64,000 nucleotides of DNA from Trichocoleus desertorum ATA4-8-CV12 (GTDB lineage: Bacteria; Cyanobacteriota; Cyanobacteriia; FACHB-46): assembly GCA_019358975.1 (NCBI GenBank), contig JAHHIL010000022.1:1-64000 (forward strand), in the 5' to 3' direction. How positions within the stretch are numbered: position 1 is the stretch's first letter; the number at the start of each line of letters is the position of its first letter. The position numbers were made by a program, and so were the translations under genes. Below the pieces are notes generated by a model. That model searched no databases. It was not told where the DNA came from and saw only the letters and a list, made by a program, of their open reading frames with translations. This document shows positions 39,715-55,934 of this stretch, one piece after another.

Positions 39715-40302
39715 ATGTCACTCGCTGCAATTATCCTCGCTGGCGGTCAAAGCTCTCGGATGGGTCAGGATAAAGCCCTGATTCCGGTGCATGGTGTGCC
39801 TCTGCTGCGCCATGTGTGTGATGTTGCCTCCAAGTGTACCCGTGACATCTATGTGGTGACGCCTTGGCCACAGCGTTACTGGGAGTTGCTACCTCCTTCC
39901 TGTCGCCTAGTGCAAGAACGACCTTTGCATCCAGATATTCAGCCTCAAGGCCCTTTAGTGGGATTTGCTCAAGGTTTGGTGCAAGTTAAAGCAGATTGGG
40001 CCTTATTGTTAGCCTGTGATCTCCCCCGGCTCAGAGCTGAGGTCTTACAAGACTGGGCACAACAACTAGACAGCGTTCCGGAGTCTGCGATCGCCTTTGT
40101 CCCTCACCATGCTAAAGGCTGGGACCCCTTGTGTGGGTTTTATCGCCGGAGTTGCTTACCGCTCTTGAATGCTTTTATTAGCCGAGGTGGGCGATCGTTC
40201 CAACGTTGGCTAGACCGCAATGAAGTGCATGCGATTCCAGATCCTGATAAGTCAATGCTCTTTAACTGCAATACTCCTAGTGATTTAGCAGCTTTGAGTT
40301 AG
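39715..40302 (+). CDS. mobA: Molybdenum cofactor guanylyltransferase
   Basis: 195 aa. It transfers GMP to molybdopterin to give the bis-MGD used by NarB. The nucleotidyltransferase motif AAIILAGGQSSRMGQDKALI is followed by RHVCDVASK, QGPLVGFAQGL, ALLLACDLPRL (metal-binding Asp) and WDPLCGFYRR. It lies about 14 kb upstream of narB, the only molybdoenzyme visible here. It may share a promoter with the DUF167 remnant. Confidence 0.93.
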   Translation: MSLAAIILAGGQSSRMGQDKALIPVHGVPLLRHVCDVASKCTRDIYVVTPWPQRYWELLPPSCRLVQERPLHPDIQPQGPLVGFAQGLVQVKADWALLLACDLPRLRAEVLQDWAQQLDSVPESAIAFVPHHAKGWDPLCGFYRRSCLPLLNAFISRGGRSFQRWLDRNEVHAIPDPDKSMLFNCNTPSDLAALS

Positions 40303-42528: not shown

Positions 42529-42865
42529 TATTTAGTCTATAGAAGTTCTGCTCGTTCAATTGTCGCATAAGGCTCTAAATCAGTTCCCCATTACCGATCA
42601 CACGGGTTTTCAGCCTCCTGCTTGTCTAAAAAATCTACCTGACCATGTTTTGTGAACAGTATAGATTGCGCCAGGATTATGCAGCTTTTGTATAGTTAAT
42701 TGCTTTTTTGCATTCGTTGAGTTAATACAAGAACTGCATAAATTAATCAGAAAAATAAGTAATTTTTCTCAAAGGAATTGCGTTTTTAGCTCAAGTTAGT
42801 TTCTTTCAAATTGTCTTGAATGATGCAAATCCTCAAAAAACTGTATAGAGAACGACTTTTTGTAA

Positions 42866-42880
42866 GCATGAAATTCATGC
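42866..42880. promoter_or_regulatory. GCATG-N5-CATGC palindrome upstream of FNT gene (candidate LysR/NtcB operator)
   Basis: GCATGAAATTCATGC is a 7-bp perfect inverted repeat around one base. The same GCATG-N5-CATGC motif occurs at 44082-44096 in front of nirA. In both cases exactly 26 nt separate it from the following NtcA site. LysR-type activators such as NtcB bind short inverted repeats near the nirA NtcA site in other cyanobacteria; the match to NtcB is inference. Confidence 0.6.
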
Positions 42881-42906
42881 AGTAATTGCATTGATTGGCG
42901 AATTTT

Positions 42907-42920
42907 GTAGTTAAAGATAC
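42907..42920 (+). promoter_or_regulatory. NtcA binding site (GTA-N8-TAC) of FNT gene
   Basis: GTA GTTAAAGA TAC matches the NtcA consensus perfectly. Surrounding bases also match the nirA site (ATTTTGTA..AGATAC.AATT, 20 of 24). The -10 is less clear than for nirA: TACATA begins 23 nt after the site and TAAACT begins 27 nt after. NtcA activates such promoters under nitrogen limitation. Confidence 0.75.
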
Positions 42921-42962
42921 AAATTTTATTTCTATGCAGAAGTTACATAAACTATAGATTTT

Positions 42963-42976
42963 GTGGTCAGAGATAC
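42963..42976 (+). promoter_or_regulatory. Second NtcA-like site (GTG-N8-TAC)
   Basis: GTG GTCAGAGA TAC lies 56 bp after the first site. The 19-nt context TTTTGTGGTCAGAGATACA matches the first copy in 16 of 19 positions, and all three differences are transitions, so it looks like a local duplication. It breaks the GTA half-site and has no obvious -10 at 22 nt. Confidence 0.5.
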
Positions 42977-43053
42977 ATTTTCAAATTCAAAGTCAAAGAT
43001 TTCGATTTGAAATTAAATTTCCTGGCTCAAAGCAGCTTTAAAGGGACTTGATT

Positions 43054-43917
43054 ATGACGAAAGAAGCGATCGCGACTATTATTAGTGCTGCCCGCACCAA
43101 AGCAGAACTGGTTGAAAACAGCTTGCCTAAATTCTTAGTTCTATCTGTAATGGCAGGTGTTTATGTTGGCTTTGGAGTGATGCTGGTTTTTTCCATTGGC
43201 GCACCCTTGCATGCGGCTGGATCACCTGCGGTTAAAGCCTTAATGGGAGCTTCGTTTGCGGTCGCTTTGTCATTAGTTATTTTTGCTGGGTCTGAACTAT
43301 TCACTGGCAATCATATGTTCATGGCAATTGCTAGCCTTGCTAAACAAGTCACCTGGAAAGACACTTGGAAGGTTTTGGGAATCAGCTTTATTGGTAACTT
43401 GGCTGGCTCTCTGCTGCTAGCCCTGCTCTTGGTTCAGTCCGGGCTTTTGGCTAAAGGACCGATCAAGAATTTCGTCTTAGAAGCTGTAGCTGGAAAAATG
43501 CAGGCTCCCTTTATGGAGCTATTCTTTCGCGGCATCCTTTGCAATATTTTGGTTTGTTTAGCCATTTGGATGGCCGCTAAGACCAAAGAGGATATCGCGA
43601 AGTTGGTGCTGATCTTCTGGTGTCTGTTTGCCTTTGTGGGGGCAGGGTTTGAACACAGCGTCGCCAACATGACCCTGATGGGATTAGGTCTATTTATTCC
43701 TCATGATCCGGCGCAAATTTCTTGGATCGGATACGCCAAAAACCTGATCCCTGTCTCTCTGGGTAACTGGGTTGGTGGCGCTTGCCTCGTTGGAGCCTCT
43801 TACTGGTATGTAGGGAGCGATCGCCCATCCCGTAAAACCAGAAAAACTAAAAAGTTGGAATCAATGCCTAGTTTTGAAACTTGGGAAACAGAACCTAGAG
43901 AGAAAACAACTTATTAA
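43054..43917 (+). CDS. Formate/nitrite transporter (FNT) family channel
   Basis: 287 aa from ATG 43054; the in-frame TTG 6 bp earlier is less likely. Six transmembrane helices fit the FocA/NirC fold: KFLVLSVMAGVYVGFGVML, the loop with LFTGNHM, then FRGILCNILVCLAIWM, ALALL-type helices and GAGFEHSVANMTLM (central His). The C-terminal tail is cytosolic and basic. In front of nirA and with an NtcA site, nitrite is the likely substrate. A separate terminator follows at 43952, so it is its own transcription unit. Confidence 0.92.
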   Translation: MTKEAIATIISAARTKAELVENSLPKFLVLSVMAGVYVGFGVMLVFSIGAPLHAAGSPAVKALMGASFAVALSLVIFAGSELFTGNHMFMAIASLAKQVTWKDTWKVLGISFIGNLAGSLLLALLLVQSGLLAKGPIKNFVLEAVAGKMQAPFMELFFRGILCNILVCLAIWMAAKTKEDIAKLVLIFWCLFAFVGAGFEHSVANMTLMGLGLFIPHDPAQISWIGYAKNLIPVSLGNWVGGACLVGASYWYVGSDRPSRKTRKTKKLESMPSFETWETEPREKTTY

Positions 43918-43951
43918 TTTGCTTAAGCAAACTCATTCTCCTAGTTAAAGA

Positions 43952-43987
43952 GCTTATCCAGACTATTTGGATAGGCTTTTATTTTTT
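43952..43987 (+). terminator. Rho-independent terminator of FNT gene
   Basis: GCTTATCCA (43952-43960) pairs with TGGATAGGC (43968-43976), with one G-U pair, around GACTATT, followed by a T-rich run (TTTTATTTTTT). It lies 35 bp past the FNT stop. Confidence 0.8.
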
Positions 43988-44081
43988 GAAGCAGCACCAA
44001 ATAATCAGGTTTTTTGTATCTTTCGCTGCAAAATCAAATGTATTTTTAGCTTTGTGTGATTCAACAAACTATGTCAAAACA

Positions 44082-44096
44082 GCATGACTTACATGC
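44082..44096. promoter_or_regulatory. GCATG-N5-CATGC palindrome upstream of nirA (candidate LysR/NtcB operator)
   Basis: GCATGACTTACATGC shares arms and spacing with the palindrome in front of the FNT gene. It ends 26 nt before the NtcA site, as there. Two genes handling nitrite would thus share both NtcA and a second regulator, consistent with nitrite-responsive control of nirA by NtcB in other species. Regulator identity is inferred. Confidence 0.6.
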
Positions 44097-44122
44097 AAGT
44101 GTTTCATATATAGAAACATTTT

Positions 44123-44164
44123 GTAACTATAGATACGAATTCTCTAGCTGAGTGCTCATAACCT
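44123..44164 (+). promoter_or_regulatory. nirA: NtcA-activated promoter of nirA
   Basis: GTA ACTATAGA TAC at 44123-44136, then exactly 22 nt, then TAACCT (TAN3T -10) at 44159-44164. This is the canonical class II NtcA promoter layout. Transcription should start about 6-8 nt after the -10, leaving a leader of about 80 nt. Confidence 0.88.
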
Positions 44165-44253: not shown

Positions 44254-46200
44254 ATGACAACCGCAGCAACCAATCCAGCGACTGGAAGCAATAAATTTGA
44301 GAAACTCAAAGCTGAAAAAGACGGTTTAGAGGTTAAAAAAGAACTCGATCGCTTTGCTCAAATTGGCTGGGAAGCGATGGATGAAACCGATCGCGACTAC
44401 CGCCTCAAATGGTTGGGTGTATTCTTCCGACCTGTCACTCCTGGCAAGTTTATGTTGCGGATGCGGATTCCCAACGGCATCCTCACCAGTGGCCAAGTAC
44501 GGGTTCTGGGAGAAGTGCTACAACGCTATGGTGAAGATGGTACGGGTGACATCACCACTCGGCAGAATATTCAGTTACGCGGCATCCGCATCGAAGACTT
44601 ACCCGATATCTTCCGTCGCTTCGAGGAAGCGGGCCTCACCAGTGTTCAGTCAGGGATGGATAACGTTCGCAACATTACAGGCTCTCCCGTCGCAGGCATT
44701 GATGCAGACGAGTTGATTGACACTCGCGGCATCGTCCGTAAAGTGCAGGACATGATCACCAACAACGGTGAAGGCAATCCCTCTTTTACTAACCTGCCCC
44801 GGAAATTCAATATTGCGATCGCGGGCTGTCGCGACAACTCAGTCCACGCCGAAATCAACGACATCGCCTTTGTCCCCGCCTACAAAAACAACAACCTAGG
44901 CTTCAATGTTTTAGTGGGTGGCTTCTTCTCCGCCAAGCGCTGTGAAGCAGCAATCCCCATGAATGTCTGGGTTGACCCCCGCGATGTGGTGGCTCTGTGT
45001 GAAGCGATTCTCTTGGTCTATCGCAATCACGGTCTGCGGGCCAATCGCCAGAAAGCGCGCTTGATGTGGCTGATTGATGAGTGGGGTCTCGACAAGTTCC
45101 GCTCTGAAGTTGAGCAACAAATGGGGCATCCGCTCCAAACTGCCGCCGCCAAGGATGAGATTGTTTGGGATAAGCGCGATCATGTTGGCATTCATGCCCA
45201 GAAGCAACCCGGACTGAACTATGTAGGGCTACATGTTCCAGTAGGCCGTCTCTATGCCCAAGACCTGTTTGACTTAGCTCGTCTGGCTGAAGTCTATGGC
45301 AGTGGGGAGGTTCGCCTCAGTGTTGAGCAAAATGTGATTGTTCCCAATATTCCTGATTCTCGCTTAGGCCCCTTCCTGAAAGAGCCTCTGCTACAACGCT
45401 TTACCGCTGATCCTGCGCCTCTGTCGCGATCGCTGGTTTCCTGCACTGGGTCTCAGTTCTGCAACTTTGCCCTGATTGAAACCAAGAACCGCGCTGCTGC
45501 CTTGATTCGCGAACTCGATGAGGAACTCGCTTTGCCGAAATCGGTGCGAATTCACTGGACAGGTTGCCCCAACTCCTGTGGTCAACCCCAAGTGGCTGAT
45601 ATTGGTCTCATGGGCACCAAAGTTCGCAAAGATGGCAAAACGGTAGAAGGTGTAGACCTCTATATGGGTGGCAAGGTGGGCAAACATGCCGTTTTGGGTA
45701 CCTGCGTACAGAAATCCATTCCTTGCGAAGACCTCAAACCAGTTCTTATCGATCTCCTAATCCAAAACTTTGGTGCTCAAATTCGCACAACTCCACTGAA
45801 AACTTCTGCTCAAATTCAATTTTCTGTAGAAGAGGAGGTAGTTCCTAGCCCTGTTGCTGCTGTCAATAGCACTGCGACATCCGCCTATCAACCTGTGGCC
45901 GTGGAAATTCCTACTCCCTCGGCTCCTCCTGCTCAAGCCGCGATCGCTAGCTTTGCTAAATCTGGTAAAGAAGTTGCTTGCACTGAAGCAGATACCTTGC
46001 TAGATGTGGCGACTCAGGCAGGGGTAGAGCTAGATAGCAGTTGTCAGGCGGGTACCTGTGGCACTTGCAAGCAAAGATTGCTGGAAGGCCAAGTGCAATA
46101 TGAGGGCGAACCGGATGGCTTGGATGCCTCTGAGCAAGCCGAAGGTTGGATTCTCACCTGTATTGCTCATCCGATTGGCAAAGTTGTAATTGATGCCTAA
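44254..46200 (+). CDS. nirA: Ferredoxin-nitrite reductase with fused C-terminal [2Fe-2S] ferredoxin domain
   Basis: 648 aa from ATG 44254 (MTTAATNPAT); usual NirA is about 510 aa. It reduces nitrite to ammonium with six electrons. The two ferredoxin-like half-domains and siroheme-binding halves are clear: GDITTRQNIQLRGI, PSFTNLPRKFNIAIAGC and the 4Fe-4S/siroheme ligands SCTGSQFC and HWTGCPNSCG. After a linker rich in Ala/Pro/Val (about 530-570), the last about 80 residues form a plant-type ferredoxin: DSSCQAGTCGTC and a distant Cys in ILTC (C-x4-C-x2-C..C). A fused ferredoxin is known for the Plectonema boryanum enzyme and may give built-in electron delivery. It is under an NtcA promoter. Confidence 0.95.
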   Translation: MTTAATNPATGSNKFEKLKAEKDGLEVKKELDRFAQIGWEAMDETDRDYRLKWLGVFFRPVTPGKFMLRMRIPNGILTSGQVRVLGEVLQRYGEDGTGDITTRQNIQLRGIRIEDLPDIFRRFEEAGLTSVQSGMDNVRNITGSPVAGIDADELIDTRGIVRKVQDMITNNGEGNPSFTNLPRKFNIAIAGCRDNSVHAEINDIAFVPAYKNNNLGFNVLVGGFFSAKRCEAAIPMNVWVDPRDVVALCEAILLVYRNHGLRANRQKARLMWLIDEWGLDKFRSEVEQQMGHPLQTAAAKDEIVWDKRDHVGIHAQKQPGLNYVGLHVPVGRLYAQDLFDLARLAEVYGSGEVRLSVEQNVIVPNIPDSRLGPFLKEPLLQRFTADPAPLSRSLVSCTGSQFCNFALIETKNRAAALIRELDEELALPKSVRIHWTGCPNSCGQPQVADIGLMGTKVRKDGKTVEGVDLYMGGKVGKHAVLGTCVQKSIPCEDLKPVLIDLLIQNFGAQIRTTPLKTSAQIQFSVEEEVVPSPVAAVNSTATSAYQPVAVEIPTPSAPPAQAAIASFAKSGKEVACTEADTLLDVATQAGVELDSSCQAGTCGTCKQRLLEGQVQYEGEPDGLDASEQAEGWILTCIAHPIGKVVIDA

Positions 46201-46551
46201 CGTCCGGTGACGATCCTCATTGAGCTACCTTGCTGGCTCACCTCATTGACTCTGCAACTAGGTTTGAGTTTTGCTCATAAGACTGCGATCGCAATTTTTG
46301 TGGAACTCAAACCTAGCTTAGACGGCGGCTATCAGCACGACCCAGTACAGGTCATTACAGCTCAGCGATCGACCCGTATGTTTTGCTACAGACAAGAACT
46401 ACAAAATCTGCATAAAAGTTTCAGATTTGCTCATGGGTAACAGTTTGTCTTTAGCAATGCAGATAGGGTAATTGCAGCGGCTGGTATAGAAAGCTACCAA
46501 CGCTGCCCCAAACATTTTTACAACTTATAACTTGAGTATTGGTGAACGAGG
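46201..46551. other. Spacer between nirA and nrtA
   Basis: 351 bp without a clear gene. The 77-codon frame at 46207-46440 has no conserved features and is rejected. Near the right end lies an NtcA-type site (46484-46497). Two TGCA copies (46468 and 46483 regions) flank AGATAGGGTAAT. No terminator with T-run is obvious, so some read-through from nirA is possible. Confidence 0.45.
46484..46497 (+). promoter_or_regulatory. NtcA-type site upstream of nrtA
   Basis: GTA TAGAAAGC TAC matches GTA-N8-TAC. The downstream -10 is imperfect: TACAAC starts 21 nt after, and TAACTT 30 nt after. It suggests that nrtABCD can be started separately from nirA. One perfect match in 350 bp could arise by chance (about 8 percent). 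Confidence 0.6.
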
Positions 46552-47883
46552 ATGACGAAGTTTTCGAGACGGAAATTCATCTTGACAGCAGGAGTTACCG
46601 CCGCAGGTACCTTACTCGCCCACGGCTGTACGTCCTCTAGCTCGACCGATACTGCTGGAACTGCCTCTAATGCCACTCCTGCGGTGAATGTCTCAGCTGC
46701 CGACACGCCAGAAGTCACCACGGCCAAGCTGGGTTTCATTGCTCTGACCGATGCTGCTCCCCTGATTATTGCCAAGGAAAAGGGGCTGTTTGCGAAATAT
46801 GGTATGAAAGATGTTTCTGTAGCTAAGCAAGCCTCTTGGGCCGCTACTCGCGACAACATCGTCCTGGGTTCTGAGGGTGGCGGCATCGACGGAGCCCATA
46901 TTTTAAGTCCTATGCCTTACTTGATCTCCACAGGTAAGGTAACTGACGGCAAGAAAGTACCGATGTACATTCTTGCTCGCTTAAACGTGAATGGTCAGTG
47001 CATTTCAGTCGCCAACGCTTACAAAGATCTCAATGTTGATGTCAAGAGCAATTCGCTCAAAGACGCTTTTGCCAAGGCTAAGTCAGCCGGAAAAGAGACT
47101 AAGTGCGCTGTGACTTTCCCAGGTGGCACTCATGATCTATGGATGCGCTATTGGCTCGCCGCAGGTGGGTTGAATCCAGATCAGGATGCTTCCACCATTG
47201 TGGTACCTCCCCCACAAATGGTTGCCAATATGAAAGTCAACAACATGGAAGCCTTCTGTGTCGGTGAACCTTGGAATGCTCAGTTGGTGAACCAAGGATT
47301 GGGCTACACCGCTTTCACCACAGGAGAGTTGTGGAACAATCACCCTGAAAAAGCCTTTGCGATGCGGGCTGAGTGGGTCGATAAAAACCCCAAAGCAGCA
47401 AAAGCCCTGCTGATGGCAGTTCAAGAAGCCCAAATTTGGTGCGATGAAGCAGGCAACAAAGACGAAATGTGTGACATTCTCTCGCAGCGAGAGTGGTTTA
47501 AGGTTCCTGCCAAAGACATTGTAGAACGAGCTAAAGGCCGTTTTGACTATGGCGATGGTCGTCGAGTCGTTGAAAATAGCCCCCACTTAATGAAGTTCTG
47601 GGCTGATAACGCTTCCTATCCCTACAAGAGCCATGACCAGTGGTTCCTCACTGAGGATATCCGCTGGGGCTACTTTGAGCCAGATACAGACACCAAGAAA
47701 CTAGTGGATGCGGTGAACCGCGAAGACCTCTGGAAAGAAGCTGCCAAAGCGATCGGTCAAACAGCCATGATTCCGGCTAGCACCTCTCGTGGTGTGGAAA
47801 CCTTCTTTGATGGCGTCAAGTTTGACCCAGAGAATCCAGAAGCTTACCTGAAGAGTTTGCAAATCAAAAAAGTCGAAGTTTAA
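46552..47883 (+). CDS. nrtA: Nitrate/nitrite ABC transporter substrate-binding protein
   Basis: 443 aa periplasmic lipoprotein. The N-terminus has a Tat-like SRRKFILTAG and a lipobox ending LLAHGC. The mature part matches NrtA: KLGFIALTDAAPLIIAKEKG, GIDGAHILSPMPYLISTG, TFPGGTHDLWMRYWLAAGGL, PPPQMVANMKV, FCVGEPWNAQL and NHPEKAFAMRAEWV. It binds nitrate and nitrite and delivers them to NrtB. It is the first gene of nrtABCD. The same fold recurs in the C-terminal half of NrtC. Confidence 0.97.
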   Translation: MTKFSRRKFILTAGVTAAGTLLAHGCTSSSSTDTAGTASNATPAVNVSAADTPEVTTAKLGFIALTDAAPLIIAKEKGLFAKYGMKDVSVAKQASWAATRDNIVLGSEGGGIDGAHILSPMPYLISTGKVTDGKKVPMYILARLNVNGQCISVANAYKDLNVDVKSNSLKDAFAKAKSAGKETKCAVTFPGGTHDLWMRYWLAAGGLNPDQDASTIVVPPPQMVANMKVNNMEAFCVGEPWNAQLVNQGLGYTAFTTGELWNNHPEKAFAMRAEWVDKNPKAAKALLMAVQEAQIWCDEAGNKDEMCDILSQREWFKVPAKDIVERAKGRFDYGDGRRVVENSPHLMKFWADNASYPYKSHDQWFLTEDIRWGYFEPDTDTKKLVDAVNREDLWKEAAKAIGQTAMIPASTSRGVETFFDGVKFDPENPEAYLKSLQIKKVEV

Positions 47884-47968
47884 GTCCCATTCTTAGCCTG
47901 TAGGGGCTTGATTGCCTAAGCTCCTACCCTTCCCTTCTCACCTGCGACCCGACGAGGAACAAGAGAGC

Positions 47969-48805
47969 ATGACAGCTAGATCGAGTAGTAACGCCATTAA
48001 TTCTTTCCCTGCCAACTTGCTGTCTCAGCTACGGAAGCAGGCAATCAATGTGATTCCCCCTGTGGTCGCAATTTTGATCTTTTTAGTGATTTGGCAAATC
48101 CTTTGCTCAGGTCCTCAAGCTCCACTCCCAGCACCCACCACTGTTATCTCCGAAACCTGGGAGCTGATTATTGATCCCTTTTTCGATAACGGTGATACTG
48201 ATAAAGGCTTAGCCCTCCAGATCTTTGCCAGCCTCAAGCGAGTTGCGATCGGTTACTCTCTCGCCGCTATTGTCGGAGTGGCTTTGGGAATTTTGATTGG
48301 CACCAATAAGCTGATGTTTCGGGCCTTAGATCCCCTCTTTCAGGTACTGCGTACCGTTCCTCCTCTGGCTTGGTTGCCCATCTCCCTGGCGGCGTTTCGT
48401 CAAGCTAACCCCTCCGCAATCTTTGTTATCTTCATCACTGCCATCTGGCCGATCTTGATCAATACAGCGGTGGGCGTGAAGCAAATTCCCCAAGATTACA
48501 ACAACGTTGCTAAAGTCCTACGTCTCTCCAAGCAAAAGTACTTCTTCAAGATTCTCTTTCCTGCCACGGTGCCCTACATCTTCACGGGGCTCAAGATTGG
48601 GATTGGTCTCTCTTGGCTCGCGATCGTAGCGGCTGAGATGCTTACGGGTGGCGTTGGCATCGGCTTTTTTATCTGGGATGCCTGGAACAGTTCTCGCATC
48701 AGCGAAATCATTCTCGCCCTCGTCTATGTCGGCGTGGTGGGATTACTACTCGACAAGCTAGTTAACTACGTCGCTTCTCTGGTTGTTACTGAAGAACAGA
48801 AGTAA
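47969..48805 (+). CDS. nrtB: Nitrate/nitrite ABC transporter permease
   Basis: 278 aa from ATG 47969 (MTARSSSNAI). It has six hydrophobic segments starting with VIPPVVAILIFLVIWQIL and the BPD permease signature region LRLSKQKYFFKILFPATVPY (EAA-like). It forms the channel as a dimer. A TTG 57 bp earlier is rejected because the ribosome site GAGGAAC precedes the ATG. It follows nrtA by 85 bp. Confidence 0.96.
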   Translation: MTARSSSNAINSFPANLLSQLRKQAINVIPPVVAILIFLVIWQILCSGPQAPLPAPTTVISETWELIIDPFFDNGDTDKGLALQIFASLKRVAIGYSLAAIVGVALGILIGTNKLMFRALDPLFQVLRTVPPLAWLPISLAAFRQANPSAIFVIFITAIWPILINTAVGVKQIPQDYNNVAKVLRLSKQKYFFKILFPATVPYIFTGLKIGIGLSWLAIVAAEMLTGGVGIGFFIWDAWNSSRISEIILALVYVGVVGLLLDKLVNYVASLVVTEEQK

Positions 48806-48877
48806 ATGCATCAGTGAGCCATATTGATGCTGAGCCTGAGCGATCGCTCACTGTTCCTCTCAATCAATGATTCTAAT

Positions 48878-48908
48878 TTCATCCTTCATCCCTCATCCTT
48901 CATCCCTC
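48878..48908 (+). repeat. TCATCC-type heptamer repeat before nrtC
   Basis: Four copies of TTCATCC/CTCATCC in a row (7-bp period) directly before the nrtC ATG at 48916. The tract resembles the short tandemly repeated repetitive (STRR) sequences of filamentous cyanobacteria. The same heptamer fills the gaps before nrtD and narM. Confidence 0.75.
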
Positions 48909-48915
48909 TAGCACC

Positions 48916-50976
48916 ATGTCTGCCTTTGTTGAAGTCGATCATATTGACCGTGTCTTCCCGCTCCCCGATGGCGGCAGCTATGTAGCGCTAAAGAATATTG
49001 ACCTCAAAATTCGCCAGGGTGAGTTCGTCTCCCTAATTGGACATTCTGGTTGCGGTAAATCCACTCTGCTCAACATCGTGGCAGGCTTAGATAAGCCCAC
49101 CAGCGGTGGCGTAGTGCTAGAAGGTCGGCAGGTCACGTCACCGGGACCCGATCGCATGGTGGTGTTCCAAAATTATTCTTTGCTGCCTTGGCTAACGGTG
49201 CGTGAAAACATTGCCTTGGCTGTCGATGAAGTCGCTAAGAACCTACCCAAAGGAGAGCGACGGGGCATTATCGAACACCATATTGATTTGGTGGGGTTGC
49301 GAGCTGCGGCTGATAAGCGCCCAAGTCAATTGTCGGGGGGGATGAAACAGCGGGTGGCGATCGCCCGTGCCTTGGCTATTCGTCCTAAGTTGTTGCTACT
49401 GGATGAACCCTTTGGCGCTTTGGATGCGCTGACGAGAGGGAACTTGCAAGAGCAGCTAATGAAAATCTGCGAAGAGAGCCGTGTCACTTGCTTAATGGTG
49501 ACCCACGACGTAGACGAAGCGCTGCTCCTCTCTGACCGCATCGTTATGCTTACGAATGGCCCCGAATCTCACATTGGTCAGATTTTAGAAGTCGCTATTC
49601 CTCGACCTCGCCATCGCTTGGAGGTGGTGAATCACCCCAGCTACTACAGTATGCGGAGTGAGATCATCTACTTCCTCAACCAGCAAAAACGGGCGAAGAA
49701 GCGGCAAGCCAAGCAAAATATTGCGATCGCCCGTCATGGCCTCGAAAAAGTCAACCTAGACATCGGCTTTATCCCCCTCACCGACTGTGCTCCCCTCGTA
49801 GTCGCTAAAGAGAAGGGCTTCTTCAAAAAGCATGGTTTAGACGAAGTCAATCTAGTCCGAGAATCGAGTTGGAAGACAGTCGCGGAAGGCATTGCCAGTC
49901 GTAGATTGGATGCCGCTCAGATGGTGGCAGGGATGCCGCTCTCGATGACCATTGGCGTCGGTGGCAACGCGCCTACCCCCGTTGTGACTGCTTTAGTGCT
50001 CGATCGCAACGGCAATGCCATTACCCTCGACAAACACTTTCATCGGCAAGGAGTTAAAACCTTAGCTGACTTCAAAGCTGCAATCGATCGAGCGCCTGAC
50101 CAAGTGCATACATTGGGGATTGTGCATCCTGCCTCCATGCACAACCTAATGTTGCGCTACTGGCTAGCTTCGGGTGGCATTGATCCAGATCAAGATGTCA
50201 ACCTCACGGTGATCCCGCCGCCGCAAATGGTCGCGAACCTCAAAGGAGGCCACATCGACGGCTACTGTGCGGGTGAACCATGGAACTCACGGGCGATTCA
50301 AGAAGGCTTGGGATATGCGATCGCCACCGATCTCGAAATTTGGCCCGGACATCCGGAGAAAGTTTTGGGAGTCCGCGAAGATTGGGCGACTCAACATCCC
50401 GAAACTCACATCGCCCTGCTCAAAGCCCTCATGGAAGCTTGTGAGTATTGCGACGATCGCCGCCATCGCGAAGAGATTGTGGAACTGCTAGCGCGACCAG
50501 AATATGTCGGCACTGCTGCTAGTTACATCCGCCCTGGCTTTATCGATCCCTACGATCGCGGCAACGGTGACGCACCGAAAAACTTACCTCGCTACAACCA
50601 GTTTCACGTGAACCATACCAATTGCCCCAGTCGCGTTGAAGGGCTATGGATTTTGACTCAACTGGCTCGCTGGGGTATTACAGCCTTCCCTAAAAACTGG
50701 ATTGAAATTCTCGATCGCGTCCGGCGGGTTGATGTTTACGGAGAAGCTGCTAGACAACTGGGTTGGCCCGATACCGAACCCGATCGCGATGCCTTCCAAC
50801 TCTTCGATGGCACCCTCTTCAACCCCGACGATCCCATCGGCTATCTCAACCGCCTAACCATTCGTCGCGATATCCGCATCGAAGAAATCAACATCGATCA
50901 ACCTATTCCGACTCCCACTTCCACCACTCCTACTTCCACTACTTCTACCTCCACAAGCCCCACCATCGCCGCCTAA
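48916..50976 (+). CDS. nrtC: Nitrate ABC transporter ATPase with C-terminal NrtA-like regulatory domain
   Basis: 686 aa. The N-terminal ABC domain has Walker A GHSGCGKST, signature LSGGMKQRVAIARAL, Walker B LLLLDEPFGALD and H-loop MVTHDVDEA. From about residue 285 an NrtA-like domain follows (LDIGFIPLTDCAPLVVAKEK, PPPQMVANLKG, YCAGEPWNS, GHPEKVLGVREDW). In Synechococcus this domain is needed for ammonium-promoted inhibition of nitrate transport. The tail is Pro/Thr/Ser repeats. It pairs with NrtD. Confidence 0.97.
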   Translation: MSAFVEVDHIDRVFPLPDGGSYVALKNIDLKIRQGEFVSLIGHSGCGKSTLLNIVAGLDKPTSGGVVLEGRQVTSPGPDRMVVFQNYSLLPWLTVRENIALAVDEVAKNLPKGERRGIIEHHIDLVGLRAAADKRPSQLSGGMKQRVAIARALAIRPKLLLLDEPFGALDALTRGNLQEQLMKICEESRVTCLMVTHDVDEALLLSDRIVMLTNGPESHIGQILEVAIPRPRHRLEVVNHPSYYSMRSEIIYFLNQQKRAKKRQAKQNIAIARHGLEKVNLDIGFIPLTDCAPLVVAKEKGFFKKHGLDEVNLVRESSWKTVAEGIASRRLDAAQMVAGMPLSMTIGVGGNAPTPVVTALVLDRNGNAITLDKHFHRQGVKTLADFKAAIDRAPDQVHTLGIVHPASMHNLMLRYWLASGGIDPDQDVNLTVIPPPQMVANLKGGHIDGYCAGEPWNSRAIQEGLGYAIATDLEIWPGHPEKVLGVREDWATQHPETHIALLKALMEACEYCDDRRHREEIVELLARPEYVGTAASYIRPGFIDPYDRGNGDAPKNLPRYNQFHVNHTNCPSRVEGLWILTQLARWGITAFPKNWIEILDRVRRVDVYGEAARQLGWPDTEPDRDAFQLFDGTLFNPDDPIGYLNRLTIRRDIRIEEINIDQPIPTPTSTTPTSTTSTSTSPTIAA

Positions 50977-50986
50977 CCCCCTTTTC

Positions 50987-51080
50987 CTCCCTCATCCCTC
51001 ATCCTTCCTCCCTCATCCCTCATCCCTCATCCTTCCTCCCTCATCCTTCCTCCCTCATCCTTCCTCCCTCATTCTTCCCT
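50987..51080 (+). repeat. TCATCC/TCCTCC-type tandem repeat between nrtC and nrtD
   Basis: About 94 bp of nearly pure pyrimidine heptamers (CTCATCC, CTTCCTC, CCTCATC in irregular order) fill the gap and end 8 bp before the nrtD ATG. The tract is purine-poor on the plus strand, so the mRNA leader would be unstructured. It is related to the tracts before nrtC and narM. Confidence 0.75.
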
Positions 51081-51088
51081 AAGCAGCC

Positions 51089-51922
51089 ATGCAAATTCTC
51101 GACGGTCAAGCCTTAGATCCAGCTCCAGCCATGAACCGGGACCCCTTCCTGGTGATTGACCACGTTTCTAAGGTCTACCCCACTCCCAACGGTCCCTACA
51201 CAGTTTTAGAAGGGATTGATCTCACAGTCTACGAAGGCGAGTTTATCTGCGTCATTGGTCACTCTGGCTGTGGCAAATCAACGCTCTTAAATATGGTGGC
51301 GGGCTTTAGCAAACCTACTACTGGTGAAGTGCGCCTGCAAACCAAGCGCATCACTCAGCCTGGACCCGACCGGATGATGGTGTTCCAGAACTATGCTTTG
51401 CTGCCCTGGATGAGTGCTTTTGACAATGTCTACCTCGGTGTGGACGAGGTGTATCCCACCAAACCACGAGCTGAGAAGGTGAAGATTGTCCAGGAGCACT
51501 TGGCAATGGTGGGCCTGACAGAAGCCGCTGACAAAAAACCAGGGCAACTGTCGGGCGGGATGAAGCAGCGGGTGGCGATCGCTCGTGCCTTGGCTATTCG
51601 TCCTGAAGTGTTGATTTTGGATGAACCCTTTGGAGCGCTGGATGCCATTACCAAGGAAGAACTGCAAGAGGAACTCCTCCAAATCTGGCGAGATCATCGT
51701 TGCACCGTGATGATGATTACCCACGATATTGATGAGGCGCTATTCCTAGCCGATCGCTTGGTGATGATGACCAATGGCCCCTCGGCCCAGATTGGGGAGG
51801 TCTTGGAGATCCCCTTCCCTCGCCCTCGCGATCGCGCCCAACTGCTAGAAAGCCCGGAATACTACAGCCTCCGCAACTACGCCCTCGACTTTCTCTACAG
51901 TCGCTTTGCCTTGGCCCATTAA
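51089..51922 (+). CDS. nrtD: Nitrate ABC transporter ATPase subunit
   Basis: 277 aa, a single ABC domain: FLVIDHVSKVYPTPNGPYTV, Walker A GHSGCGKST, signature LSGGMKQRVAIARAL, Walker B LILDEPFGALD and MITHDIDEA. It forms the NrtC-NrtD ATPase pair. ATG at 51089 is used; an internal ATG at 51131 (MNRDP) is the other option. It lies 66 bp before nrtP, so read-through is likely. Confidence 0.96.
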   Translation: MQILDGQALDPAPAMNRDPFLVIDHVSKVYPTPNGPYTVLEGIDLTVYEGEFICVIGHSGCGKSTLLNMVAGFSKPTTGEVRLQTKRITQPGPDRMMVFQNYALLPWMSAFDNVYLGVDEVYPTKPRAEKVKIVQEHLAMVGLTEAADKKPGQLSGGMKQRVAIARALAIRPEVLILDEPFGALDAITKEELQEELLQIWRDHRCTVMMITHDIDEALFLADRLVMMTNGPSAQIGEVLEIPFPRPRDRAQLLESPEYYSLRNYALDFLYSRFALAH

Positions 51923-51994
51923 CCAACCCATACCCACAACGCTACCCCGCTCGAAATTGGGAATCTTTCCCTCTGTTGAATTCAAAGGTTTGAC

Positions 51995-53515
51995 GTGCTT
52001 AGAGAATTATGGTCATTTCAGGGTCGTTACCGCATCTTGCACATGACCTGGTTTGCTTTCTTTCTGTCCTTTGTCGTTTGGTTTAACTTTGCTCCCCTCG
52101 CGACAGCAGTGAAAGCCGACTTGGGTCTTACAGAAGCTCAAATGCGGACGATCGCGATCTGCAACGTTGCGCTAACCGTTCCGGCTCGCATCATCATCGG
52201 CATGCTACTGGATCGTTACGGCCCTCGTGTGACCTATTCCCTCCTGTTGATGTTCTCCGCCATTCCTTGCACCGTTTTTGCCTTAGCCCAAAACTTTAGT
52301 CAGTTAGCCCTAAGCCGTCTAGCTTTGAGCATTGTGGGAGCTGGGTTTGTGATTGGCATTCGCATGGTGGCAGAATGGTTTCCCCCCAAAGAGATTGGTC
52401 TAGCCGAAGGGATTTATGGCGGCTGGGGTAATTTTGGTTCGGCTGCTGCTGCCTTTACGCTGCCGACTCTTGCCGCTACCACTGCTGTGGTTGCCGCAGG
52501 TCAGGTGAACTGGAGACTGGCGATCGCCTTAACCGGAATTTTTGCTGCGGTTTACGGAGCGATCTACTTTTTCAATGTCCAAGATACACCCACTGGTAAG
52601 GTCTACCAGCGTCCGGCTCGGCATGGTGGGATGGAGGTCACCAGTCGCAAGAGTTTCTGGGCCTTAATGGGCATGAACATTCCTTTGATAGGTGTTTTGG
52701 GCTTGTTGGCTTGGCGCTTGCAGACCGCTGGGATTTTAGATGCAATAGGGCTTTACATTAGCTGGTTGCTTTTGGTAGGTCTTTATCTCTTTCAGGCTTA
52801 TAAGTGCTGGGAGGTCAACAAGGAGTTGATGACTGGCAAAAAGTCCTATCCCCCTGAGGAGCGCTACCGCTTTGGCCAAGTTGCCCTTCTGGAACTCACC
52901 TATTTTGTCAACTTTGGCTCAGAACTCGCAGTTGTTTCGATGCTACCTGCCTTCTTTGAAAACACTTTTGGTTTGAGCAAAGTCGTGGCGGGTATGATTG
53001 CTGCGAGTTACGCTTTTATGAACTTGGTGGCTCGGCCTGGGGGCGGTTTGGTGTCAGACAAACTCGGCAGTCGTAAGCTCACCATGACCGTCTTGACTGC
53101 TTGTATGGGCCTAGGCTACCTCGCGATGAGCAGTGTTACCAGTAGTTGGTGGCTGCCGATCGCCATTGTGTTGACGATGGCTTGCTCCTTCTTTGTTCAG
53201 GCAGGTGAAGGCTCTACCTTTGCGATTGTGCCTCTGGTTAAGCGCCGAGTCACAGGTCAAATTGCCGGAAATGTCGGAGCCTACGGTAACGTCGGAGCGG
53301 TGATTTACCTGACCCTCTACAGCCTGCTACCTGAAGGGGCGATCGGAAACCAGATTTTCTTTCAAACTCTCGGTATCATGTCCGTGATTGTTGCCTTCCT
53401 CTGTGGATTTCTCCTTAAAGAACCTAAAGGCTCGTTCTCAGAACATCATGAAGGAGAGGAAGTCTTAGTATTGTCTCCTAAGGCCATGCCAGTTTTCGCT
53501 GAAGAACACGAATAA
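51995..53515 (+). CDS. nrtP: MFS nitrate/nitrite permease (NrtP/NarK type)
   Basis: 506 aa from GTG 51995. It has 12 transmembrane helices of the nitrate-nitrite porter family. Conserved are RYRILHMTWFAFFLSFVVWF, the substrate-Arg region NVALTVPARIIIGMLLDRYG, GLAEGIYGGWGNFG (nitrate signature 1), FFVQAGEGSTFAIVPLVKRR and GQIAGNVGAYGNVGAV (signature 2). A long cytosolic loop (about 200-300) and an acidic C-tail are seen. This permease type is common in marine and some filamentous cyanobacteria; here it is next to nrtABCD. Confidence 0.95.
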   Translation: MLRELWSFQGRYRILHMTWFAFFLSFVVWFNFAPLATAVKADLGLTEAQMRTIAICNVALTVPARIIIGMLLDRYGPRVTYSLLLMFSAIPCTVFALAQNFSQLALSRLALSIVGAGFVIGIRMVAEWFPPKEIGLAEGIYGGWGNFGSAAAAFTLPTLAATTAVVAAGQVNWRLAIALTGIFAAVYGAIYFFNVQDTPTGKVYQRPARHGGMEVTSRKSFWALMGMNIPLIGVLGLLAWRLQTAGILDAIGLYISWLLLVGLYLFQAYKCWEVNKELMTGKKSYPPEERYRFGQVALLELTYFVNFGSELAVVSMLPAFFENTFGLSKVVAGMIAASYAFMNLVARPGGGLVSDKLGSRKLTMTVLTACMGLGYLAMSSVTSSWWLPIAIVLTMACSFFVQAGEGSTFAIVPLVKRRVTGQIAGNVGAYGNVGAVIYLTLYSLLPEGAIGNQIFFQTLGIMSVIVAFLCGFLLKEPKGSFSEHHEGEEVLVLSPKAMPVFAEEHE

Positions 53516-53582
53516 GGTAGCTGCAAGCGCTTGGGAGGGTGAGGATTGACGAGCTTTTATGCTCTTTGGTCTACACTCTCCG

Positions 53583-53606
53583 GCTGATATTTTCAGGTTT
53601 ATCAGC
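53583..53606. promoter_or_regulatory. Inverted repeat upstream of the narB NtcA site
   Basis: GCTGATA (53583-53589) and TATCAGC (53600-53606) form a 7-bp inverted repeat with a 10-nt spacer, ending 15 nt before the NtcA site. It differs from the nirA/FNT palindrome, so any second factor here would be different. It could also be the hairpin end of the nrtP transcript, though no T-run follows. Confidence 0.4.
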
Positions 53607-53621
53607 TTGAACGGTATTTTT

Positions 53622-53663
53622 GTAACAAATTCTACGAATTAAATCTCTCAAGCCGCCTAGGTT
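53622..53663 (+). promoter_or_regulatory. narB: NtcA-activated promoter of narB
   Basis: GTA ACAAATTC TAC at 53622-53635, then 22 nt, then TAGGTT (TAN3T) at 53658-53663. The spacing is identical to that of nirA. So narB, about 9.5 kb downstream, has its own nitrogen-controlled promoter. Confidence 0.85.
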
Positions 53664-53723
53664 GGGGTTAAACTCTGAATCCATCTACGGCCCATCTACG
53701 CTTAGTACCGGACGACTGTTGTT

Positions 53724-55934
53724 ATGACTGATCCCACTAAAACTCTCTGTCCTTACTGCGGTGTCGGGTGTGGCTTAGAAGTATTGCCACCCGCACAGGC
53801 TGGTAAGCCCACTCATAGAGATAGTGAAGGTAAACCTTCCTGGCAGGTGCGGGGCGATCGCGCCCATCCTTCGAGCCAAGGGATGGTTTGCGTCAAGGGA
53901 GCCACGATCGCAGAATCGTTGAATAAAGACCGCTTGCTCCACCCGATGATCCGCGACAACCTGAATCAGCCGTTTCGTCGCATCACCTGGGAAGAAGCCT
54001 ATGATGCCATCGTGAACCGAATTCAAGCTGTTCGGTTTACTCAAGGCCCAGAAGCAATCTGTATGTATGGTTCTGGGCAGTTTCAAACTGAGGACTACTA
54101 CACAGCCCAAAAGCTGCTCAAGGGTTGTCTGGGCACAAACAATTTTGATGCCAACTCGCGCTTGTGCATGTCTTCAGCCGTGTCTGGTTACATTCAAAGC
54201 TTTGGAGCTGACGGTCCTCCTTGTTGTTATGACGATCTAGAGCTGACTGATTGTGCGTTTCTGATTGGCACCAACACCGCCGAATGCCATCCGATCATCT
54301 TTAATCGCCTGCGGAAATACCATAAGCAAAACCGCCACGTCAAAATGATTGTGGTTGATCCGCGCGAAACAGCAACGGCTCAGGCTGCTGATCTGCATTT
54401 GGCCATTCGCCCTGGCACTGATATTGATTTGCTCAATGGCATGGCTCATCTGCTGATGCGGTGGGGCTACTTTGATGTCAGCTTTATTGATGAATGCACC
54501 GCCAATTTCCCCGCTTTTGCTCAAGTGATTCAAGACTACACGCCTGAAATGACAGCGCGGCGTTGTGGTATTGCGGTGGAAGATTTAGAAACTGCGGCTC
54601 GTTATTGGGGGGAATCTCAGCGAGTGCTTTCCCTGTGGTCGATGGGAGTCAACCAATCTAGCGAAGGTACTGCTAAAGTCCGGACGATCATTAACCTACA
54701 CCTGATGACTGGGCAAATCGGTAAACCTGGAGCAGGGCCATTCTCTCTGACGGGACAGCCGAATGCAATGGGGGGGCGAGAGGCAGGTGGATTAGCTCAC
54801 TTGTTACCTGGCTATCGCGTGGTGCAAAATCCCCAACACCGGACAGAACTAGAGCAGTTTTGGGGACTGAAGCCTGGACAGATTTCTGCTCACCCAGGTC
54901 GGACAGCCTGGGAAATGATCACTGGGTTGGAGCAGGGAGATGTTGGGGTGCTGTGGATTGCGGCTACTAATCCGGCGGTGAGTATGCCTGACTTGGAGCG
55001 GACGAAAGCGGCCCTCAAGCGATCGCCCTTCACGATTTACCAAGACGCCTATTACCCTACGGAAACTGCCGAGTATGCCCACTTGCTATTGCCCGCAGCG
55101 CAATGGGGCGAAAAAACAGGTGTGATGACCAACTCAGAGCGGCGAGTCACGCTTTGTCAGGCATTTCGCGATCGCCCTGGTGAAGCTAAAGCGGATTGGG
55201 AGATCTTTGCGGAAGTGGGGCGGCGTTTAGGCTTTTCTCAGTACTTTACCTTTACGACGGCTGCCGAAGTCTACGCTGAATTTGCTCAGATTACTCGCGA
55301 TCGCCCTTGTGAAATGACGGGATTGAGTCATGAGCGATTGCGGGCTCAAGGTCCAACCCATTGGCCTTGTCGAGCTTCGGGTGAGGTTAAACCTGGGGAA
55401 CCTGCGAGGCTCTATCAAGATCTGCGCTTTCATACTCCCGATGGTCGGGCACGGTTTGGTGCTTACCATTCCCGTGGCTTAGCGGAACGTCCTGATCCGG
55501 AATATCCTTTGGTGCTCACGACGGGTCGGCTTTACGGTCACTGGCATACGCAGACGCGAACTGGACGGATTGAGAAGACGCGGCAAATGCACCCGAATCC
55601 TTTTTTGGAAATTCATCCTCGTGATGCGGCGGCGCTGGAGTTGCAGGACAAAGATTGGGTAGAAGTGCGATCGCGGCGAGGGTTGGCGCGGTTTCCGGTG
55701 ACGGTGACGAAGGCGATCGCGCCTGGGACTGTGTTTGTGCCGATGCACTGGGGCTTTTTGTGGGCAGACCAAGCGGAGGCAAATGCCTTGACGCATCCAG
55801 AATGTTGCCCCGATTCTAAGCAGCCAGAGTTGAAAGCTTGTGCGGTGCAGCTAATTCCGATGAAGGCTGGAGCTAGTAATCTGGAGAGTTTGCATTCATC
55901 AGCCCGATCGAGTATCCTCGCACCATCTTCTTAG
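53724..55934 (+). CDS. narB: Ferredoxin-nitrate reductase
   Basis: 736 aa molybdoenzyme reducing nitrate to nitrite. The N-terminal [4Fe-4S] site is CPYCGVGCG plus VCVKG. Other motifs are the molybdopterin region ([11 protein letters not shown]-like as [14 protein letters not shown]), [29 protein letters not shown], and C-terminal molydop-binding [18 protein letters not shown] and FVPMHWG. The length is usual. It takes electrons from ferredoxin, needs bis-MGD (mobA) and NarM. Confidence 0.97.

Follow-up and report, generated by a model that had tools for sequence, protein, structure and literature searches.

The nitrate/nitrite gene cluster

The window, which is the whole stretch of 64,000 nucleotides from Trichocoleus desertorum ATA4-8-CV12 that was analysed, contains a cluster that starts with a formate/nitrite transporter (FNT) gene and continues with nirA and the nrt and narB genes (Table 1). 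The family assignments support NrtA, NrtP, and NarB, and nrtB, nrtC, and nrtD were assigned from the sequence and the gene order. The C-terminus of NirA features a fused plant-type [2Fe-2S] ferredoxin domain (fdx_plant, E = 1.8e-14, residues 570-648), and this NirA-ferredoxin fusion is common to many of the compared loci and missing in others. A MobA-like nucleotidyltransferase gene (PF12804) is located 5' of the cluster at 39715-40302, which fits a role in molybdenum cofactor supply for NarB, and no NtcB operator was found near it. Additionally, the region between nirA and nrtA features three GTA-N8-TAC sequences (46345, 46376, and 46484) within 153 nt (46345-46497), which is above the local expectation.

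Table 1. Promoter elements and genes of the FNT and nirA region, with positions in the window.
Feature	Position	Strand	Basis or remark
FNT distal NtcB dyad (predicted), degenerate, ACTTT-TTGTA-AGCAT	42855..42869	+	operator model; GCAT on the right is the sole intact half-site
FNT palindrome, GCATG-AAATT-CATGC	42866..42880	.	right half of distal dyad plus left half of proximal dyad
FNT proximal NtcB dyad (predicted), perfect, ATGCA-GTAAT-TGCAT	42877..42891	+	centre about -71; exact pattern match
FNT NtcA box, GTAGTTAAAGATAC	42907..42920	+	GTA-N8-TAC match
FNT -10-like hexamer (inferred), TTACAT	42943..42948	+	22 nt past the NtcA box; 1 mismatch to TAN3T
FNT (formate/nitrite transporter) gene	43054..43917	+	PF01226, 3.3e-73
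nirA distal NtcB dyad (predicted), ATGTC-AAAAC-AGCAT	44071..44085	+	operator model; centre about -93
nirA palindrome, GCATG-ACTTA-CATGC	44082..44096	.	junction between the two dyads
nirA proximal NtcB dyad (predicted), ATGCA-AGTGT-TTCAT	44093..44107	+	centre about -71
nirA NtcA box, GTAACTATAGATAC	44123..44136	+	GTA-N8-TAC match, operator model
nirA -10 box, TAACCT	44159..44164	+	22 nt past the NtcA box; same hexamer as Anabaena nirA
nirA, ferredoxin-nitrite reductase	44254..46200	+	NCBIfam PRK09566, 4e-275, residues 5-513
nrtA, nrtB, nrtC, nrtD, nrtP, narB, 3' of nirA	46552..55934	+	ORFs, families, order

A sequence-only reading of this DNA had reported a palindrome, GCATG-N5-CATGC, followed at a fixed distance by an NtcA site in front of two nitrite genes, and this observation was reproduced in every detail. 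The palindrome is located exactly at the two positions in Table 1 and nowhere else in the window, 26 nt separate each copy from a perfect GTA-N8-TAC site, and the 24-nt contexts of the two NtcA sites (42902-42925 and 44118-44141) are identical at 20 of 24 positions. The family matches of the two downstream genes confirmed that both are nitrite genes. Dinucleotide shuffles of the window predict 0.13 palindromes compared with the two found, and 0 of 100 shuffles reached two. The genome contains three copies in 6.06 Mb, two of them in the window. The combination of palindrome, 26 nt, and NtcA box was observed twice, with ~0.003 expected per genome from base composition. GTA-N8-TAC alone was found nine times in the window against 5.25 expected, which is not significant.

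Operator anatomy across the phylum

Comparison of the nirA upstream regions of 30 genomes and 80 further loci revealed that the nirA operator has one anatomy in more than 100 cyanobacteria, which consists of ATGCA-N5-TGCAT, 7 nt, ATGCA-N5-TTCAT, 15 nt, the NtcA box, 22 nt, and the hexamer TAN3T. Throughout the phylum, the proximal dyad commonly ends in TTCAT on its right side. The spacing of these elements is rigid. Dyads of the form ATGCA-N5-TGCAT were counted with one mismatch allowed and TTCAT accepted, and they were measured against NtcA boxes. Among 80 loci, the spacing between dyad and NtcA box is 15 nt in 37 and 37 nt, which corresponds to the distal dyad, in 27, and adjacent values occur in 0-3 loci. 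The offset between the two dyads is exactly 22 in 25-36 loci, with zero loci at the neighbouring offsets. In 69 of 79 nirA loci, exactly 22 nt separate the -10 hexamer TAN3T from the NtcA box in front of it, and the nirA promoter of the window conforms to this.

An operator model derived from 79 sites contains 40 bits and reads t.ATGCa..t...GCAT.a.....ATGCa.aaa.ttCAT..a....Aa.aTTTTGTAac....gaTAC. In a separate genome set, 44 of 54 nirA upstream regions score above the 99% level of the shuffled null. This fraction comes from a model for which the pattern of the window served as the seed, and some of the test genomes belong to the same species as training loci. Recognisable operators directly before nirA were not found in the NtcB-bearing genomes G055, G011, G046, G029, and G050 or in the basal f14 group. 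In the f14 group (L199-L201), a divergent NtcB-like gene (45% identity) is located head-to-head with nirA, with no recognisable two-dyad operator, and therefore the two-dyad architecture may have arisen after the f14 split.

Scanning the whole window with the model gave the highest score to the nirA site (55.3), followed by the FNT site (32.4) and a site with a score of 6.7 that overlaps the FNT operator on the other strand; no second operator was found before nrtP or narB. The presence of only two operator sites in the window indicates two operator-driven units, which are FNT alone and nirA to narB, and the latter is probably a single unit. In the complete genome, the pattern ATGCA-N5-TKCAT-N15-GTA-N8-TAC has exactly two perfect matches, and the next best site has two mismatches. 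The longer pattern GCAT-N7-ATGCA-N5-TKCAT-N15-GTA-N8-TAC, with up to two mismatches, occurs exactly twice in each genus member (3/3), at FNT and at nirA. The rigid dyad spacing and the two exact genomic matches bear out the earlier suggestion of a composite operator for NtcA and a LysR-type factor at both genes. At FNT, the proximal dyad is retained in all three genus members, whose distal dyads all lack the left half-site, including those of both sister strains.

The FNT leader also contains ATGCAGAAGTTACAT (42934-42948) and GTGGTCAGAGATAC (42963-42976), which were considered as a possible additional, degenerate module and rejected with a score of -7.8. The spacing and the box of this module are lost in the sister strains, and the predicted FNT -10 element overlaps its dyad.

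NtcB as the probable second factor

The factor that acts together with NtcA is almost certainly NtcB, judging from gene content and promoter comparison. The genome encodes an NtcB protein at C4:138498-139451, on another contig and unlinked to the cluster, that matches the NtcB of PDB entry 8h3v over residues 1-299 (E = 6e-146); the entry features four NtcB chains. The NtcA protein of this genome (C2:220278) scores above the TIGR03697 cut-off and matches the NtcA of the same entry. In 8 of the compared loci, ntcB is found on the opposite strand ~2-3 kb upstream of nirA. The operator model detected no operator before ntcB in this genome (L211).

One family of cyanobacteria without NtcB provides a natural control for the role of the dyads. 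NtcB was found in 0 of its 81 genomes at E <= 1e-30 and NirA in 67 of 81, and the same query finds NtcB in 54 of 59 genomes of another set. Dyads at nirA follow the presence of the ntcB gene: they occur at 0 of 31 promoters in the NtcB-less family versus 44 of 52 in NtcB-bearing genomes (Fisher 1e-15, a value that overstates independence because the family probably reflects one loss, i.e., one event seen many times). The NtcA element at nirA is equally frequent in both, with 16 of 31 in the NtcB-less family and 27 of 52 elsewhere. Freshwater picocyanobacteria have been reported to be without ntcB (PMC10161378). NtcB had been put forward as a candidate from the sequence, and the absence of the dyads from the NtcB-less family together with the match of the genome's own NtcB to 8h3v single it out as the right one.

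It is very unlikely that the dyads are bound by a different LysR-type regulator such as PacR or CmpR. The genome does contain six LysR-type genes above the family cut-off, and one report describes, from other work, PacR binding to nirA and ntcB in Anabaena (PMC12052932); however, the dyads are gone in the family that has no NtcB, ntcB is frequently located near nirA, NtcB is the protein found together with NtcA in the solved structure, and the operator copies are limited to nitrate/nitrite and siroheme genes.

A fusion of a LysR-type regulator to an NMT1/NrtA-like substrate-binding domain was observed at L008 (G000:C53, ~8.6-10.7 kb). It occupies one open frame of ~670-685 residues with PF00126, PF03466, and PF13379 domains, and may combine sensor and regulator for a transported anion in a single protein.

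The palindrome as a junction of two dyads

The palindrome combines the inner half-site of each dyad with one base from either end of the 7-nt linker. As far as the aligned promoters tell, it is the everted junction, or seam, of two predicted inverted dyads and not a functional unit. The ATGCA-N5-TKCAT dyads fit the T-N11-A rule for LysR-type sites, whereas GCATG-N5-CATGC has C-N11-G in that register and does not fit. The aligned promoters do not support GCATG-N5-CATGC as the recognised unit, and it was rejected as an independent motif: across 79 loci, the information content of the outer linker bases is 0.01 and 0.03 bit, and they are G and C in only 2 of the 79.

The literal form of the earlier suggestion, in which a separate factor binds GCATG-N5-CATGC and works with NtcA, is exceedingly unlikely. 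The palindrome is scarce in the genome yet located at both promoters, and the sister strains, which had been named as the place to look for its loss, both retain the arms. However, the outer bases of the arms are not conserved across the phylum, the FNT spacer GAAAT is replaced by GGGAT in the sister strain G001 with the half-sites unchanged, the conserved units run outward from the palindrome and not inward, and the operator-model scan found no operator around the third genomic copy (C47:29385). A recent local duplication with no separate function at the FNT gene, suggested by the common spacing and orientation of the modules 1.2 kb apart, has just as little to recommend it, because the modules agree at no more than 41 of 68 positions, most of which belong to the half-sites and the T-run/NtcA box, and both are retained in all three genus members while the flanks diverge.

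Half-site type and NtcB position 30

Part of the phylum has operators with mostly ATAC/GTAT instead of ATGC/GCAT half-sites. Operators of the ATAC/GTAT type were found in six genomes (G018, G022, G031, G036, G044, and G057), and all six encode an NtcB with Pro30. Among the first ~50 NtcB proteins, Ser30 was found with 81 ATGC and 0 ATAC half-sites, and Pro30 was found with 20 ATAC and 3 ATGC half-sites. A tentative and rather doubtful proposal is that operators with mostly ATAC/GTAT half-sites exist only alongside an NtcB with Pro30, in place of Ser, in its recognition helix and that the operator was re-coded within the phylum by co-evolution. If true, the helix region of NtcB around position 30 would help to set the choice of half-site.

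There are exceptions in both directions. G049, G084, and G095 combine Pro30 with ATGC in the proximal dyad, and L132, L133, and L143 combine a Ser30 NtcB with one ATAC half-site each. The Pro30 exceptions show that position 30 is not the whole story, and Ser30/Pro30 as the sole specificity switch was rejected on the basis of genomes added after the first set, namely G084 and G095, which have Pro with ATGC half-sites, and the Ser30 cases L132, L133, and L143. Among L242-L249, L259, and L332-L334, position 30 partly tracks the half-site type, with the exceptions located in one f17 subclade.

The FNT transporter and other likely operator targets

A search of 291 genomes at E <= 1e-30 detected relatives of this FNT gene in four, which are the three genus members and G108. 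The G108 protein is 62% identical, and the operator model found no operator in front of its gene. The FNT protein of the window is ~26% identical to the nitM-type FNT genes located near nirA in the NtcB-less family. NitM belongs to the FNT family and is linked to nirA in marine picocyanobacteria, its overexpression kills cells on nitrite, and the nitM of beta-cyanobacteria reportedly shows no linkage to genes for nitrite use (PMC4390861). Unlike beta-cyanobacterial nitM, the FNT gene described here adjoins nirA and has a predicted NtcB-NtcA operator of its own. Since overexpression of nitM is lethal on nitrite, tight control of FNT makes sense. With three intact half-sites versus four at nirA, the FNT promoter would be a weaker or differently tuned copy of the operator, and a graded or stricter nitrite response at FNT is a reasonable guess from its half-sites.

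A search of 145 genomes for the exact operator gave 30 matches in 24 genomes, and the reversed control pattern gave 0. The genes 3' of these operators are mostly nirA, with FNT in this genus, nrtP once, and a NirB-like FAD/BFD oxidoreductase once. In three genomes (L156, L175, and L180), the operator precedes cobA, the gene of a tetrapyrrole (uroporphyrinogen) methylase (PF00590) of siroheme synthesis, and two further matches (L172 and L173) are likely due to chance. The operator before cobA would tie the siroheme supply of nitrite reductase to the nitrite switch. Both cobA and the FNT nitrite transporter are thereby added as likely NtcB targets, and the operator is specific enough to find such targets with few false positives.

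Proposed switch

The two promoters are best read as copies of the known cyanobacterial NtcA-NtcB nitrate/nitrite-response operator, with a probability of roughly 0.93. A tetramer of NtcB would occupy the two 15-bp dyads of the ATGCA-N5-TGCAT type, whose centres are 22 bp apart, and a dimer of NtcA would bind GTA-N8-TAC 15 bp past the proximal dyad and ~41 bp upstream of the transcription start. NtcA, which signals nitrogen shortage via 2-oxoglutarate, would bend the DNA and allow nitrite-activated NtcB to contact RNA polymerase, and full expression would thus require both nitrogen shortage and nitrite. The DNA looping and the mechanism of NtcA belong to the general background on these regulators. 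The NtcB of this strain is predicted to bind these exact sites.

Activation of the Anabaena nir promoter reportedly requires both NtcA and NtcB (Frias et al. in 2000), Maeda et al. are said to have mapped the cis-acting sequences of the Synechococcus elongatus PCC 7942 nirA promoter in 1998, and a 2011 study reportedly described the NtcB regulon already; given that earlier regulon study, the NtcB motif class is not new. The novelty attributed to the motif in the sequence-only reading therefore falls away, as NtcB-dependent nitrite-responsive nirA promoters, the NtcB regulon, and an NtcA-NtcB structure have all been published. The switch is already known and is found in most of the phylum. Nitrite-responsive activation of nitrate-assimilation genes by NtcB has been described (PMC4390856). 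What is new is modest and consists of the four-half-site anatomy, the FNT copy with three half-sites, and the copies before cobA and nrtP elsewhere. The suspected new motif is replaced by a precise description, with dyads 22 bp apart, 15 bp to the NtcA box, and 22 bp to the -10 element.

Comparison with known systems

PDB entry 8h3v is presumably the NtcA-NtcB structure of Han et al. (2024) on the nirA promoter of Anabaena/Nostoc sp. PCC 7120. The four NtcB chains in this entry fit two dyads, and near full-length relatives of both regulators are encoded in the present genome. The nirA promoter of Synechococcus elongatus PCC 7942 was reportedly found to be NtcB-dependent and nitrite-responsive (Aichi and Omata in 1997; Maeda et al. 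in 1998), and it likewise features a LysR dyad upstream of the NtcA box. The PCC 7942 site is reportedly TGCA-N5-TGCA, which is the core of the proximal dyad described here. The mapped nirA promoter of Anabaena reads GTAGCTACTTATAC-N22-TAACCT, and the nirA promoter of the window features the same NtcA box, the same 22-nt spacing, and the same TAACCT -10 box (PMC3898017). The present system differs from that of PCC 7120 in its non-Nostoc lineage, in the TTCAT right arm of the proximal dyad, in an ntcB gene that is unlinked to the cluster, and in the second copy of the operator at FNT.
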